64,000 nt of DNA from Hymenobacter jeollabukensis (GTDB lineage Bacteria; Bacteroidota; Bacteroidia; Cytophagales; Hymenobacteraceae), in NCBI RefSeq assembly GCF_005771675.1, contig NZ_VAJM01000001.1, forward strand, positions 372,001-436,000. The letters are read 5' to 3'. The position numbers and the translations under genes were made by a program. Position 1 is the first letter of the stretch. Each line of letters opens with the position of its first letter. Shown one piece after another: positions 12,741 to 18,118 of this stretch. The notes beneath the pieces were generated by a model. It saw nothing but the letters and a program-made list of their open reading frames with translations, did no database searches and was not told where the DNA came from.

Positions 12741-13883
12741 ATGCCCCGCTTCTTTGCCTGCCTGCGCGTCGGTGCCCTGGCCCTGTTGCCCCTGGCCGCC
12801 GCCGCCCAGTACCCCGCTTCCCTCGTGGAAGTCAAAACCACCGACGCCACGCCGGCCACGCGCCTGCAGCTGCAGACCACCGGCGGCCTCTACCTCGGCG
12901 GCGACTACGACGGGGACCCCAGCGGCCTTGGCGTCCCGCTGGAAGGCAGCGGCACCCGCCTGATCTGGTACCCCGGCAAAGGCGCCTTCCGCGCCGGGGG
13001 CATCGACGGCACCCAGTGGGACGCGGCCAACATCGGCAGCTACTCCACCGCTGCCGGCTTCAACTGCCGGGCCTTTGGCGAATACTCTACCGCCTTCGGC
13101 AAGGACGTGACGGCCGCCCAGTTCGGTTCCGTTGCCGCGGGCGAATACGCCGTCGCGTCGGGCGCCACCTCGGTGGCCCTGGGCTACGACGCGCACACCA
13201 ACGCCCGGCAGGGCTCCTTCGTCTTCGCCGACCGCTCCGTGGTGCACGATAACGGCGGCTCCAACAACAATGCCTTCCGGGCCGGCGTCAACCACTTGGC
13301 CAACTGGCGGGTGTCGGGCGGCTTCCGCGTCTTTACCAGCAGCAACCTGACCACCGGCGTCACCTTCCAGTCGGGTACGGTTACCAACAACTGGGGCCAG
13401 AACAACGCGGTCATCTCCACCTCCACCGGGGCCTACCTGAGCACCAGCGGCGTGTGGACCAATACCTCCGACCGCCACAGGAAGCACCGCTTCGAGGCCG
13501 TGTCGGGCGAGGACGTGCTGCGCCGCCTGCGCCGGCTGCCCATCACCCGCTGGAGCTACAAGCAGGAAACCGGCCCGGTGCGCCACCTCGGCCCCATGGC
13601 CCAGGACTTCTACCGCGCCTTCCAGCTCGGCCCCGACAGCATCAGCATCGGTACCGTGGACGCCGACGGCGTAGCCCTGGCCGGTGTGCAGGCCCTCGAC
13701 GCCCGCACCCGCGCCCTGCAAGTCGAAAACGAGCGGCTGCGCGCCCGCCTCACCGCCTTGGAGCAAGTGGCCATTGCCCCCAGCACTGCCGGCCTGCCGC
13801 TGAACCTGAATACCATCCTGCTGACCCTCGGCACCGGTCTGCTGGCCCTGCTGCTGCTGCGCCGCCGCCCCGCCACCCGGTAA
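12741..13883 (+). CDS. Surface fibre protein with YadA-like head and S74 self-cleaving chaperone domain
   Basis: 380 residues. A signal peptide (1-22) is followed by a beta-rich stalk and YadA-type head repeats (about 99-155: GSYSTAAGFNCRAFGEYSTAFG, SVALGYDAHT). The S74 intramolecular chaperone starts at about residue 241; its cleavage motif SDRHRK places Ser243 and Lys248 five residues apart as in phage endosialidases, and RHLGPMAQDF is the second hallmark. A coiled coil (318-343) and C-terminal membrane segment (about 355-373) with RRR follow. Cleavage at Ser243 would free the trimeric head from a membrane-held chaperone. The role is unknown. Confidence 0.88.
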   Translation: MPRFFACLRVGALALLPLAAAAQYPASLVEVKTTDATPATRLQLQTTGGLYLGGDYDGDPSGLGVPLEGSGTRLIWYPGKGAFRAGGIDGTQWDAANIGSYSTAAGFNCRAFGEYSTAFGKDVTAAQFGSVAAGEYAVASGATSVALGYDAHTNARQGSFVFADRSVVHDNGGSNNNAFRAGVNHLANWRVSGGFRVFTSSNLTTGVTFQSGTVTNNWGQNNAVISTSTGAYLSTSGVWTNTSDRHRKHRFEAVSGEDVLRRLRRLPITRWSYKQETGPVRHLGPMAQDFYRAFQLGPDSISIGTVDADGVALAGVQALDARTRALQVENERLRARLTALEQVAIAPSTAGLPLNLNTILLTLGTGLLALLLLRRRPATR

Positions 13884-13980: not shown

Positions 13981-15435
13981 ATGCGCCTGAATACCTCCCC
14001 GCTCCTGCCCGCCCTGCTGCTGACCGGCGCCCTGGCCGCCTGCTTCCAGCGCAGCCCCGACGAAGCCCACCAAGCCGCTGCCGCCGCGCCCGGCGCCGAT
14101 GCCGTGGTGCTGCAAACTGGTAAAACCCTCAGCGAAGATTTCGAAGCCGGCAGCAAGGGCTCCTACGCCGCCGCCGAAGAAACCCTGCCCTCCGGCCGCT
14201 GGCTGCTCGACGACGCCCTCATCGGCACGGCCGAGCAAGACCACAAGCACGGCCAGAAAGCCCTGCGCCTGCGCGGCAAGGGCCGCGCCCAGATGCGCTT
14301 CGACCTGCCCGCCGGCGCCGGCCGGGTGCGCGTCTTTCACGCCAGCTACGGCAAGGATGGCGCCGTGCGCTGGCAGCTCTGGGGCTCCCAGGACCGCGGC
14401 CGTAGCTGGCAGCCCGTGGGCAGCGAAATCAAGGTGGAAGGCGCCGGCCTGCCCGCTACCATCGTGGTGAACCGCCCCGGCCCGCTGCGCCTGGAAATCC
14501 GCAAGCTCGATGGCGGCGACGACCGGCTGAACATCGACGACTTCTCGGTGGAGCCCTACCAGGGCGGCACCCCGCCCGCCGTGGCCGGCAACGGCGCCAA
14601 AACGCCCGCCGCTGCCGCACCGGTTACCACCACTGCGCCGGCCACCTTGCCGCAGGGCACCGGTCCGGCGGGTCAGGACGACCCGCTCAGCCTCGGCAAC
14701 CCCAGCGGCGCCACCAGCAGCCCCGCCCAGTCGCCCAACAACTACCTGATGGTGAAGCCCCAGTACACTCTCAGTTACTCCCGCGACCGGGGCACGCCCA
14801 ACTGGGTGGTGTGGCACCTGAGCAAGGCGTGGATGGGCTCGGCCCCGCGCCAGGACGACTTTCGCCCCGACCCGGCCCTGCCCCGCGGCTGGTACCAGGT
14901 CACGCCCCGCTCCTACTCCGGCTCGGGCTTCGACAAGGGCCACAACTGCCCCTCGGCCGACCGCAGCCTGACGCTGGACGACAACTCGGCCACCTTCCTG
15001 ATGACCAACATGATTCCGCAGGCGCCCATGAACAACCAGCGTACCTGGAATCACCTCGAAGACTACTCGCGCGACCTGGTGCAGGCCGGCAACGAAGTGT
15101 ACGTGCTGATGGGCAGCTACGGCCGCGGCGGCACCGGCTCCAACGGCCCCGCCCAAACCCTCGACAACGGCCACGTGACCGTGCCCAAGCGCGTGTGGAA
15201 GGTGCTGGTGGTGCTGCCCAACGGCTCCGGCGACCTGCAGCGCATTGCCGGCGGCCAGGCCCGCCTCATTGCCATCGACACGCCCAACGACAACAGCGTG
15301 GACCCCGACTGGGCGAAGTACCGCACTTCCGTCGACGCCATCGAAGCCGCCACCGGCCTCGACCTGCTCAGCCTGCTGCCCGTCGAGGCCCAGGCCCGGC
15401 TGGAAGCCCAGGTCGACGCCGGCCCCACGCGCTAG
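13981..15435 (+). CDS. NucA-type DNA/RNA non-specific endonuclease lipoprotein
   Basis: 484 residues. Lipobox LAAC places the lipid on Cys21. Residues about 45-195 look like an extra beta-sandwich domain; a Pro/Thr/Ala linker follows; the nuclease domain spans about 255-475. The catalytic segment FDKGHNCPSADRS carries His321 (DRGH-type motif with Lys for Arg), followed by ATFLMTNMIPQAP and NNQRTWNHLE with the metal-binding Asn and Glu. These stretches and KVLVVLPNGSG...DLLSLLP closely resemble Anabaena NucA. Expected to degrade DNA and RNA outside the cell or in the periplasm with Mg2+. A NuiA-like inhibitor gene lies at 16149. Confidence 0.93.
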   Translation: MRLNTSPLLPALLLTGALAACFQRSPDEAHQAAAAAPGADAVVLQTGKTLSEDFEAGSKGSYAAAEETLPSGRWLLDDALIGTAEQDHKHGQKALRLRGKGRAQMRFDLPAGAGRVRVFHASYGKDGAVRWQLWGSQDRGRSWQPVGSEIKVEGAGLPATIVVNRPGPLRLEIRKLDGGDDRLNIDDFSVEPYQGGTPPAVAGNGAKTPAAAAPVTTTAPATLPQGTGPAGQDDPLSLGNPSGATSSPAQSPNNYLMVKPQYTLSYSRDRGTPNWVVWHLSKAWMGSAPRQDDFRPDPALPRGWYQVTPRSYSGSGFDKGHNCPSADRSLTLDDNSATFLMTNMIPQAPMNNQRTWNHLEDYSRDLVQAGNEVYVLMGSYGRGGTGSNGPAQTLDNGHVTVPKRVWKVLVVLPNGSGDLQRIAGGQARLIAIDTPNDNSVDPDWAKYRTSVDAIEAATGLDLLSLLPVEAQARLEAQVDAGPTR

Positions 15436-15459
15436 GCCCGGTTTCGGCTATACCATGAA

Positions 15460-15498
15460 CAAGCCCGCTCCGGCAGTTGCCAGAGCGGGCTTGCGCTT
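15460..15498. terminator. Terminator between nuclease and small secreted protein genes
   Basis: The stem AAGCCCGCTC against GAGCGGGCTT encloses a 12-base loop. It separates two convergent genes. Confidence 0.85.
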
Positions 15499-15518
15499 TA
15501 TTGAGCATTCAACGGCGG

Positions 15519-15929
15519 TTACTCCCGCGTGCCGCTGTCGAAACCACTGACGAGCAGCTGCCGGTCGGCGGCCGAGAGCGGGCGGTTGCTGGCCTGGGCG
15601 TACACGGCGCAGGCGCGCTCCGCCGTTTCGACGCCCAACGTTTTGGCCCGCATGCCCCAGAGCACCAAGGCGTACTGGTGGCGGTTGTACATGTTGCCGT
15701 CGTGCAGAAACATGGTCTGCTTTTTCGAGGCGAGCAGCTTCTCGAAGTCCATTTCGCCGCCGCGGCTGGCTTGCCGGACGTAGGCTTCGATGCTGGCCGG
15801 AGACGCGGCCGGCGCGGCCGCTACCGGGCCGCCGTTGGCAGTTGCCAGGGCAGTCGGCGCCGACTGGGCCCAGGAAGTGGTAGTGTGCCCCAACAGGAGC
15901 AATGAGCAAACGACTAGCAACCGTGACAT
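15519..15929 (-). CDS. Small secreted protein of unknown function
   Basis: 136 residues. A clear signal peptide (MSRLLVVCSLLLLGHTTTSWAQ, cleavage after WAQ) is followed by an Ala/Pro-rich stretch and then about 90 residues of charged helical sequence (SIEAYVRQASRGGEMDF, RHQYALVLWGMRAKTLG, ACAVYAQASNRPLSAADRQ). I do not recognise a family. It is the only gene between the nuclease and the gene holding its predicted inhibitor, transcribed on the inhibitor's strand. Confidence 0.7.
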   Translation of the reverse strand: MSRLLVVCSLLLLGHTTTSWAQSAPTALATANGGPVAAAPAASPASIEAYVRQASRGGEMDFEKLLASKKQTMFLHDGNMYNRHQYALVLWGMRAKTLGVETAERACAVYAQASNRPLSAADRQLLVSGFDSGTRE

Positions 15930-16063
15930 AAGCGTTGGGATAAGGAATGACTGAAGCTACGCAACAACGTCCGCAGCCGGTTTTAGGTGCCTGCTCACGC
16001 AACTTTCGCGCCGCATTCGATCAGCCACGACTTTCCCGCATTATCATTCCGTCATCCTCAGCC

Positions 16064-16116
16064 AAGGGGCCGCCGGCCGGCACGGCCCGTAAACCAGCGC
16101 CAACCGGCGGCCCCTT
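16064..16116. other. Stable stem-loop downstream of the HIT-NuiA gene
   Basis: Perfect 13-bp arms (AAGGGGCCGCCGG and complement) enclose a 27-base loop. Neither side has a T run, so termination is possible but not shown. Confidence 0.5.
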
Positions 16117-16148
16117 GCGCTCATGCCCGCAGGCCAGTGCCCGGCGGC

Positions 16149-17042
16149 TCAGGTTTCCACCAGGGTGGTTTTGAAGCCGGCCAGCTTGCCGCCGCTGGTT
16201 TTGCCCAGGGCGTAGGCCTCCAGCTGCGGCCCTTTCCCGATGCGGTACACTTTCACGTCCTCCAGCTCCTGTTTCAGGAACATCTGCAGGGCTTTGTAGC
16301 GGTTGGCCAGGTCCACGTTGCCGAGCACGCCGTCGTCGGCGGTGTGGTTGCGCAGGAAGTACGTCAGCTCCTGCTCCTGCACCGGCGTGTCGGCGGGCTG
16401 ATTGAGCAGCTTCAGCAGCTCCTTGGCGTCCAGCGCCCCACTCGGGGCCTGGTAGCTCACCACCGTCAGCGGCGCATCCGATTCGCTGACGAAGTACAGG
16501 CCTTCGGTGAGCTGGCGCAGCTGCTCGAGCGAGGCATCGGCCGGGCTGGCGTCGGCAGTTTTGGCGACGTTGGAAGCGGCGGTTTCGCGCTCCGCCTTGC
16601 TTTCCAGGGGCTTATCGGCCGTTTTGGCGGCCGGGCTGCCGTCGGCACCGGGCACCTTGGCGGCAATAGCGGCGGCCAGCTCCTTCATACGCTCCTCGGG
16701 CACCTTGATTTTGGGGTTGGCGAAGTTCATGTCCGACACCTGGTTCATCGGAATCAGGTGAATGTGCGCGTGCGGCACTTCCAGCCCGATAACGGCCACC
16801 CCGATGCGCTTGCAGGGCACGGCGGCCTTCACGCCCTTGGCCACGCGCTGGGCAAACTGGTGCAGCGCCGCCAACTCGGCCGGGGGCAGGTCGAAGATGT
16901 AGTCGACCTCCTTCTTGGGAATGACCAGCGTGTGGCCCTCCACCAGCGGCGTGATGTCGAGAAAGGCCAGGTGATGCTCGTCTTCGGCCACTTTGTAGGC
17001 GGGCAGCTCACCCGCCACGATGCGGGAAAAGATGGAAGGCAT
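16149..17042 (-). CDS. HIT domain protein fused to a NuiA-like nuclease inhibitor
   Basis: 297 residues from ATG at 17040-17042. Residues 1-115 are a HIT nucleotide hydrolase/transferase domain with the triad His91-x-His93-x-His95 (PHAHIHLIPMN). A charged Ala-rich linker (about 116-170) leads to a C-terminal domain (171-297) that matches Anabaena NuiA from LEQLRQLTEGLYFVSESD to the end. The Glu of the SES motif (Glu187) and the C-terminal Val-Glu-Thr ending, both used by NuiA to block NucA, are conserved. Predicted cytoplasmic. It follows greA on the same strand but is separated by a terminator. An ordinary HIT protein of this type would end near residue 130. Confidence 0.9.
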   Translation of the reverse strand: MPSIFSRIVAGELPAYKVAEDEHHLAFLDITPLVEGHTLVIPKKEVDYIFDLPPAELAALHQFAQRVAKGVKAAVPCKRIGVAVIGLEVPHAHIHLIPMNQVSDMNFANPKIKVPEERMKELAAAIAAKVPGADGSPAAKTADKPLESKAERETAASNVAKTADASPADASLEQLRQLTEGLYFVSESDAPLTVVSYQAPSGALDAKELLKLLNQPADTPVQEQELTYFLRNHTADDGVLGNVDLANRYKALQMFLKQELEDVKVYRIGKGPQLEAYALGKTSGGKLAGFKTTLVET

Positions 17043-17044
17043 GC

Positions 17045-17227
17045 GGTGAAATGGTGAGGTGGTGAACTGGTGAGTTGCCGTTCTGGCGGCACCAGGCGGG
17101 CCGATTGGGCCGGCCGTCAAAGTACGGGGCAAAATGCAAAAGGGCGAAGCCGCAGCTTCGCCCTTTTTACAATGTCGCAGGAGAGCAGTAATGGTCAACT
17201 CACCAGTTCACCACTCACCATCTCACC
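17045..17227. repeat. Paired inverted GGTGA octamer arrays flanking the greA terminator
   Basis: The left array, 17045-17076, is four exact 8-nt units: GGTGAAAT, GGTGAGGT, GGTGAACT, GGTGAGTT. The right array, 17197-17227, is the inverse: AACTCACC, AGTTCACC, ACTCACC, ATCTCACC. The right array abuts the greA stop and the left array abuts the HIT-NuiA start codon. A terminator hairpin lies between them. Confidence 0.9.
17138..17168. terminator. Terminator between greA and the HIT-NuiA gene
   Basis: The stem AAAAGGGCGAAGC / GCTTCGCCCTTTT with a CGCA loop has an A run on one side and a T run on the other, so it could work in both directions. Confidence 0.9.
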
Positions 17228-17229
17228 GC

Positions 17230-17700
17230 TTACCGGCTGATTTCCAGGATTTCGAACTGCAGCTTGCCGGCGGGCACGGTGATTTCGGCCACGTCGCCGG
17301 CCGACTTGCCCAGCAGGCCCTTGCCGATGGGCGACTTCACCGAGATTTTGCCGGCGGCCAGGTTGGCTTCTTCTTCGGCCACCAGCGTGTAGTCGAGCAC
17401 CATGTTGTTCTTCAGGTTCTTCAGCTTCACCTTACTCATGATCAACACCTTGCTGTTGTCCAGGTTGCTGTCGTCGAGGATGCGGGCGTTGCCGATGATT
17501 TCTTCGAGCTTGGAGATTTTCAGCTCCAGATGGCCCTGCGACTCCTTGGCCGCGTCGTACTCGGCGTTTTCGCTCAGGTCACCTTTGTCGCGGGCTTCGG
17601 CCAGCTGGCGGGCTGCCTCGGCCCGACCGCGGATTTTAAGATCCTGCAGTTCGTCCTTCAGCTTTTGCAAGCCTTCGGCGGTATAATAGTTGACGGCCAT
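17230..17700 (-). CDS. greA: Transcription elongation factor GreA
   Basis: 156 residues, the usual length. The N-terminal coiled coil carries GDLSENAEYDAAKE, whose acidic tip residues stimulate RNA cleavage by backtracked RNA polymerase. The C-terminal FKBP-like domain includes VKSPIGKGLLGKSAGDVAEI. Start ATG at 17698-17700 (MAVNYYTAEGLQKL). The greA-HIT order on one strand is seen in other Bacteroidota, though here a terminator and repeat arrays separate the two genes. Confidence 0.97.
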   Translation of the reverse strand: MAVNYYTAEGLQKLKDELQDLKIRGRAEAARQLAEARDKGDLSENAEYDAAKESQGHLELKISKLEEIIGNARILDDSNLDNSKVLIMSKVKLKNLKNNMVLDYTLVAEEEANLAAGKISVKSPIGKGLLGKSAGDVAEITVPAGKLQFEILEISR

Positions 17701-17772: not shown

Positions 17773-18093
17773 CGAACAGGCATCAGCAAATATAGGCAAT
17801 CAGGCCCACAGTGCGCAACCGGTGAACTGGTGAGATGGTGAAATGGTGCGTGACTGTTCTGATTGCCAGAACCTCATTTTTTGGTTCGGCCCGGCGCACT
17901 GGTCCCGGTTTAGCCGCTGGCGTAACCGGAGCCCGGCGTAAAGCAGGTATGCAACCAGCGTAGACGGTTACAGTGGCGGCCCAGTGGTTTCGCGCGGGCG
18001 CCGGACGCAGGCTGAGAGCCGGCGGTATGTAGGCCACGGTTGCGCAACGTGCTGTTGACAAACCGGCGTCAGCGCCTCCGAAAACGCACCATT
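17773..18093. other. Non-coding region enclosed by inverted arrays
   Basis: 321 bases with no supported gene. It is bounded by the arrays at 17821-17850 and 18087-18118. The inner 230 bases are GC-rich, with one short AACC...GGTT hairpin near 17877-17893, and have no recognisable homology. Confidence 0.5.
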
Positions 18094-18118
18094 TCACACC
18101 CTCACCAACTCACCAATC
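17821..18118. repeat. Second pair of inverted GGTGA octamer arrays
   Basis: The left array is GGTGAACT, GGTGAGAT, GGTGAAAT, GGTGCG (17821-17850). The right array, 18087-18118, is the inverse and includes a 14-base exact match to the left (GTGAAATGGTGCGT). The right array runs into the coding end of the dehydrogenase gene, where it encodes the last residues IGELVRV. Confidence 0.85.

Follow-up and report, generated by a model that had tools for sequence, protein, structure and literature searches.

The closest described relative of the system reported here is the NucA-NuiA pair, a well-studied tight complex of a nuclease and its inhibitor, for which PMC5374557 gives a pKd of 11.49. That paper assigns D121 to NuiA and E24 to NucA. 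In PDB entry 2o3b, the NucA-NuiA complex by its title, the motif of the nuclease chain (2o3b_A) reads ARGH, which fits a D121A nuclease. We take D121 to be a NucA residue and E24 to be a NuiA residue, the reverse of the published assignment, and we presume that in the complex the inhibitor glutamate lies in the metal site and the C-terminal threonine at the interface. Here we describe a 64,000-nucleotide stretch of the genome of Hymenobacter jeollabukensis (contig NZ_VAJM01000001.1, positions 372,001 to 436,000; the window) in which a NuiA domain is the C-terminal part of a HIT-domain protein encoded near a convergent gene for a lipoprotein-like, NucA-type nuclease (Table 1). We consider it probable, with good confidence, that HIT-NuiA acts in the cytoplasm as a safety inhibitor against the NucA-type DNA/RNA nucleases that the cell presumably exports, and that its inhibitor part is attached to a HIT enzyme that is itself intact. 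Nucleases of this type and their NuiA inhibitors have been described as a pair before; a fusion to HIT, or two origins of such a fusion, is described in no paper of the literature searched, which excludes most subscription journals and the domain-architecture databases.

The HIT-NuiA fusion protein

The earlier note on this DNA, made from its letters alone, described a HIT domain joined to a full NuiA domain that keeps Glu187 and a C-terminal threonine, and the open reading frame, Pfam and the alignment all agree with that description. Residues 172-297 match NuiA (PF07924; E 4.8e-34, 117.9 bits against a cut-off of 22.1) from position 4 to 130 of the 130-position model, and residues 11-100 match HIT (PF01230; E 6.7e-19, 68.8 bits against a cut-off of 21.5), indicating membership of both families. 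NuiA_2 (32.4 bits against 27) and DcpS_C also exceed their curated Pfam cut-offs on this protein. In sequence searches of the PDB, the HIT part is nearest to 7mqw (E 2.6e-25) and 3p0t (E 1.4e-23) and the NuiA part to 2o3b_B (E 1.2e-12) and 1j57 (E 1.4e-12); at E 0.001 the NuiA part matched NuiA chains alone (2o3b_B, 1j57/1ktu). An AlphaFold2 model gave the NuiA blocks a predicted local distance difference test (pLDDT) score of 83-97 and the HIT blocks poor values of 36-72, with almost no relatives of the HIT part among the 28 rows of the input alignment. Foldseek with this model returned 2o3b_B first (E 5.2e-11; template modelling score by target length 0.88), followed by NuiA 1j57 and then by HIT proteins, identifying the NuiA fold.

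The residues expected of an inhibitor were compared across a family sample of 204 genomes, comprising 128 genomes of the window genus (8) and one sister genus (120) and 76 genomes of four other genera. The surroundings of NuiA were read in 121 of the 128 genomes, window included, and at 20 loci of the other genera, mostly chosen among the better-scoring ones. In a HMMER alignment, Glu187 falls on NuiA Glu24 (position 25 of the PDB chain, which we assume to be longer by one residue), and the final residue, Thr297, falls on Thr135; both are presumably functional NuiA sites. Among 120 fused rows, the Glu24 position holds Glu in 118 and Asp in two, and the Thr135 position holds Thr in 115 and Ser in four. 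Glu also occupies the former position in 42 of 43 rows from elsewhere in the family (the other has a gap; some of the 43 are duplicates, and two come from L126 and L134, whose frames are broken) and in 19 of 19 rows from outside it, three of which belong to the second fusion described below. Six columns are invariant in an alignment of 15 NuiA sequences: one S, one E, two G and two T, of which the later T ends the protein. The linker is little conserved among 14 sequences compared. Inhibition of a nuclease by the NuiA domain is a prediction well supported by the genomic data. The HIT triad, which reads HAHIH at residues 91-95, is kept as HxHxH in all 120 fused rows, so that the HIT half is probably still active and a single chain probably carries both functions in working order. 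The source genome has one NuiA, together with one clear (1.7e-14) and one weak (3.2e-4) further HIT match.

Linkage and co-occurrence with NucA-type nucleases

The linked nuclease matches Endonuclease_NS (PF01223) over residues 251-467 (E 4.5e-51, 174.1 bits against a cut-off of 23), and its best PDB matches are 2o3b_A (1.2e-75) and 1zm8_A (1.6e-75). The positions of NucA D121, H124, N155 and E163 are all kept, with Lys at R122, which places the protein among the NucA-type nucleases; the same four positions are kept in 101 of 101 nuclease rows from fused loci and in 17 of 17 sister rows. The resemblance to NucA noticed earlier is therefore confirmed, and the statement that this is the sole nuclease does not extend beyond the window, since the source genome carries three Endonuclease_NS genes, all with lipoprotein-like N-termini by eye. 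At the related nuclease loci looked at, the N-termini also appear by eye to be similar to that of the window nuclease. The N-terminal domain is present in the nuclease frame at 104 of the 107 fused loci with a nuclease in the stretch read (at L157, L183 and L188 the nuclease part was found without it) and was not detected in the nucleases adjoining unfused nuiA. The N-terminal half of the nuclease also matches other large open reading frames of sister genomes. A nuclease tree was built with 36 of the 103 rows from fused loci, and in it these nucleases group as a single clade (100/99). A polymorphic toxin-immunity system was considered and rejected, Pfam having given the nuclease domain alone, with no delivery domain, and the 36 fused-locus nucleases in the tree being one clade.

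At 107 of the 121 fused loci the nuclease lies 3' of HIT-NuiA and convergent to it, at a distance of 90-6952 bp. Twelve of the other 14 loci have an orthologue of the window nuclease farther off on the contig, at about 10-52 kb and again convergent (G417 has it in pieces), giving 119 of 121 fused loci with a convergent nuclease on the contig of the fusion; in the remaining two genomes (G453, G497) the orthologue is on another contig. Unfused nuiA is found within about 330 bp of a nuclease at 17 of the 20 other-genus loci (7 convergent, 10 on the same strand). Among 49 named nuiA loci, two of which (L223, L230) repeat genes of sampled genomes, a nuclease adjoins nuiA at 35 (30 convergent, 5 on the same strand); 25 of these are cyanobacterial and the rest come from Bacteroidota, Acidobacteriota and one Chlorobiales record. 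At the level of whole genomes, all 23 genomes with NuiA in a phylum sample of 395 also have Endonuclease_NS, which is present in 144 of the 395 (Fisher 2.5e-11). Within the family, NuiA was found in 201 of 204 genomes and Endonuclease_NS in 196; the three genomes without NuiA are all among the eight without the nuclease (p 4e-5). The genomic association of the fusion with NUC-type nucleases across relatives that the earlier note anticipated is borne out by this linkage and by the strong co-occurrence, and a count of NuiA-HIT fusions and their distances to the nuclease gave one frame at 120 of 121 loci, spacings of 90 bp to about 52 kb and a second fusion.

In the interpretation that we favor, any nuclease molecule folding ahead of its export would be captured by the NuiA domain at the C-terminus. 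Glu187 would then occupy the metal site, and Thr297, free at the end of the chain, would lie at the interface. HIT proteins are usually dimers, and dimerisation through the HIT half would yield a two-headed inhibitor. One inhibitor may serve the three nucleases of the source genome, and a single inhibitor may cover several exported nucleases. The proposal that the protein protects the cell against its own exported nuclease is thus supported by genomic linkage and co-occurrence; with three nucleases to one NuiA the pair is not exclusive, and the 121 loci have a single inherited arrangement in common.

Several observations weigh against this interpretation. The 121 fused loci form one clade, so that their linkage counts as about one event, an inherited arrangement, and the range of spacing indicates that tight adjacency was not maintained. 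Local adjacency was dropped as an argument for specificity, since the greA-side genes are as well kept as the nuclease. In the stretch read, no nuclease was found at three of the 20 other-genus nuiA loci, and 14 of the 49 named loci have none beside nuiA (L197 and L216, with HIT fused or adjacent, and L219, L224, L227, L230, L231, L232, L234, L236, L238, L239, L240 and L244). In the phylum sample outside the family, a nuclease is present in the 1.5-kb flanks of one of 19 NuiA loci (L005, G280), and the matches listed in the genome searches agree that NuiA and the nuclease are mostly apart there. Five family genomes have NuiA and no detected nuclease (G495, G557, G561, G577, G578), and the co-occurrence P-values of 2.5e-11 and 4e-5 ignore relatedness. 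The nucleases adjoining unfused nuiA are not one clade, and both paralogues from the source genome fall among them; because of this mixing, the tree does not support the window nuclease as a direct orthologue, or the fused-locus nuclease as the direct heir, of the nuclease beside unfused nuiA. Finally, with three nucleases in the genome the target is not unique.

Two origins of the HIT-NuiA fusion

HIT and NuiA lie in one open frame at 120 of the 121 loci of the window and sister genus, indicating that the fusion is not due to chance. At the remaining locus, L126 (G463), they occupy two overlapping frames, either because the fusion is broken there or because the assembly is wrong, and at L074, L134 and L139 a second overlapping frame holds part of a domain. 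The seven remaining genomes of the 128 have NuiA frames of 252-361 residues, a length that fits the fusion. No fusion was found at the 20 loci of the other genera; there, HIT stands alone in frames of 131-170 residues, with greA just upstream, in all 23 genomes searched (20 with NuiA loci read and three without NuiA), and nuiA, where present, is located elsewhere. Upstream of the fusion, greA is found on the same strand at 121 of 121 loci, 119 of them by a strict distance rule (L126 at +1178 and L165 at -336 fall outside it). Since the sister genera have an unfused greA-hit pair, this pair is the older one, with NuiA added to the end of HIT. The joining of nuiA to hit would have taken place in the ancestor of the window and sister genus, presumably with the nuclease nearby and convergent. 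Other genes on the greA side are widely kept among the 121 loci (2HDH in 118, KsgA (ksgA) in 116, PepA in 106 and PdxA in 103), and S74, DacB and vWFA, on the far side of the nuclease, occur in one or two; the nuclease is the last of the window genes tested to be retained on its side.

A second fusion occurs in a distant family, where Pfam finds HIT followed by NuiA in one frame in three genomes (G125, G272, G390; loci L010, L007, L008), and one of these matches Candidatus Thermochlorobacter aerophilum (L197). Its HIT half is nearest to 6af2 and to the mycobacterial diadenosine tetraphosphate (Ap4A) phosphorylases 3ano/3wo5 (E 4.9e-38 to 4.5e-36), so that the window HIT, nearest to 7mqw/3p0t, is of a subfamily unlike the Thermochlorobacter type. 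HIT domains of this second type were missed by a scan with the window HIT domain and detected by Pfam. All three genomes carry another HIT gene apart from the fusion. In a related genome, G133 (L216), the adjacent genes hit and nuiA overlap by ATGA; among the other five of the nine genomes in that family, HIT and NuiA are apart in two, and in three the search detected just one of the two domains. Endonuclease_NS is present in 9 of 9 genomes; no nuclease was found in the 5-kb flanks of L197 or in the 1.5-kb flanks of L007, L008 and L010. In a NuiA tree with 19 of the 120 window-kind fused rows and four Thermochlorobacter rows (two probably from the same genome), the two fused groups are far apart. 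A single ancient fusion was rejected, because on this short alignment (130 columns, with several long branches) the tree rejects a common clade (approximately unbiased (AU) test, p 2.3e-5) and because the HIT subfamilies differ. HIT and NuiA were thus joined on at least two occasions, each involving a different HIT subfamily.

A third C-terminal NuiA fusion, to DUF6748, is found at four Myxococcota loci (L234, L236, L238, L240), where no nuclease was detected. In each of the three fusion types NuiA forms the C-terminus, so that the conserved Thr at its end stays free. Among phages, the Thermochlorobacter NuiA domain had no match (tblastn, E 1e-5), and a search of BFVD was likewise empty at E <= 0.001. 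On plasmids, 104 records matched the full window protein, with no single place in any of them spanning 80% of the query; the best 40 of the 104 are mostly HIT alone (about residues 1-137) or NuiA alone (172-297, with cyanobacterial names). Weak spans over 57-64% of the query in records H8, H9 and H15 end at residues 172-192; the matches in H22 and H23 end at 151.

Possible roles, surroundings and known relatives

Three other explanations have to be set beside a tethered safety inhibitor. The NuiA domain might act on something else, with the nuclease nearby by chance, and the loose spacing, which reaches about 52 kb in the sister genus, the absence of a detected nuclease from the 1.5-kb flanks of 18 of the 19 NuiA loci that the phylum sample has outside the family, and the four DUF6748-NuiA loci in Myxococcota with none detected beside them would all fit such an accident; the genome-level co-occurrence, the adjacency in several phyla and the kept inhibitor residues nevertheless render it very improbable. 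Far more plausible, and in our judgement evenly balanced, is a neutral or expression-driven fusion, in which nuiA was joined to a housekeeping gene with steady expression and HIT has no part in nuclease control. This is compatible with inhibition and is consistent with the age of the greA-hit pair (greA next to hit in all 23 sister genomes searched), with the variable linker and with the occurrence of either domain alone. It accounts less well for the retention of one frame at 120 of 121 loci and for two independent fusions onto HIT genes, although NuiA is also found on DUF6748; in addition, the hairpin between greA and HIT-NuiA in the window makes shared expression with greA uncertain.

A sharper form of the safety inhibitor, with which it is compatible, is a regulated one. 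HIT would sense or consume nucleotides, such as dinucleoside polyphosphates, adenylated compounds or products of nucleic-acid breakdown, and its state would tune NuiA, so that nuclease control followed nucleotide stress. The two fusion origins with different HIT subfamilies (one origin being rejected at AU p 2.3e-5), the ATGA-overlapping hit-nuiA pair in a relative of the second fusion and the triad kept in 120 of 120 rows point in this direction, but a linker varying from 18 to 48 residues provides no fixed geometry and NuiA occurs without HIT in most lineages sampled, and we regard a regulated inhibitor as possible but unlikely. It is similarly doubtful that HIT-NuiA is nucleotide-gated in the stricter sense that binding or turnover of a nucleotide (e.g., Ap4A) by HIT alters the hold of NuiA, a coupling that would then have evolved on at least two occasions, each time with another HIT enzyme. 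The earlier note also raised a tie between nucleotide hydrolysis by HIT and nuclease control; the independent second fusion with another HIT subfamily raises the plausibility of that idea, and the variable linker speaks against rigid coupling. HIT may contribute dimerisation, steady expression or nucleotide gating. The repeated fusion favors some coupling, whereas the loose linker favors plain tethering. A fusion that is so widely kept and was made twice hints that nucleotide metabolism and nuclease control may be linked, an idea directly testable with two small proteins.

Table 1. Features of the HIT-NuiA locus and its neighbours (window positions).
Feature	Position	Strand	Basis or remark
YadA head repeat and Peptidase_S74 protein	12741..13883	+	
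Lipoprotein-like nuclease, putative target of the NuiA domain	13981..15435	+	484 residues; Pfam, PDB search, linkage
Putative signal peptide, lipobox-like LAAC, Cys21	13981..14043	+	By eye from translation
N-terminal domain, ~150 residues	14113..14565	+	No Pfam family above cut-off
Endonuclease_NS (NucA-type) domain	14731..15381	+	Pfam; D121, H124, N155 and E163 positions kept
136-residue protein	15519..15929	-	
HIT-NuiA fusion gene	16149..17042	-	297 residues; Pfam and translation
NuiA domain, residues 172-297, Glu187 and C-terminal Thr297	16152..16529	-	Pfam, alignment, model
Linker, residues 131-171	16530..16652	-	18-48 residues between domain matches in 120 relatives
HIT domain, residues 1-130, triad His91/93/95	16653..17042	-	Pfam and translation
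Perfect 13-bp hairpin and short T run, between greA and HIT-NuiA	17138..17167	-	Terminator-like by eye
greA, upstream neighbour of hit	17230..17700	-	Pfam; same neighbour in sister genera

Because of the hairpin and the inverted repeat between greA and HIT-NuiA, co-transcription of the two is not assured. The hairpin is absent from the list of a consensus scan and is enclosed by perfect inverted arms of 19 bp. GGTGA-NTGGTGA motifs repeat at 17044-17230 and also at 17821-17850 and 18101-18114; with one mismatch allowed, there are 10 matches in the window against 0.19 expected for a pattern drawn from the element itself. The repeats and inverted arms are possibly a small mobile or repeat element. 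Between the nuclease and HIT-NuiA lies a gene for a 136-residue protein with a signal-like N-terminus, relatives of which were found at 8 of 8 loci of its own genus and at none of 113 sister-genus loci; it has no Pfam match at E 1 and no NCBIfam match above cut-off. The gene adjoining the nuclease on its other side encodes YadA head repeats and a Peptidase_S74 chaperone domain and has a relative in two of 121 loci, window included.

Among known HIT proteins, 7MQW and 3P0T share the HIT domain with the fusion, but their chains of 142 and 138 residues leave no room for NuiA. The mycobacterial Ap4A phosphorylase (3ANO, 3WO5) is a relative of the HIT half of the Thermochlorobacter fusion; it differs in that the match ends with the HIT part and no NuiA is fused. 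Nit-Fhit (1EMS) resembles HIT-NuiA as a HIT enzyme fused to another domain, its partner being a nitrilase-like domain and not a nuclease inhibitor. The NucA-NuiA system of Anabaena PCC 7120 (PDB 2O3B) shares with the window a NucA-type nuclease, a PF07924 inhibitor and the Glu24 and Thr135 positions, and the likeness extends to the arrangement of the genes, since 25 of 27 cyanobacterial loci have a convergent nuclease next to nuiA. In contrast to the Anabaena pair, the window inhibitor is the C-terminal half of a HIT enzyme, and the window nuclease carries an extra N-terminal domain and a lipobox-like start.

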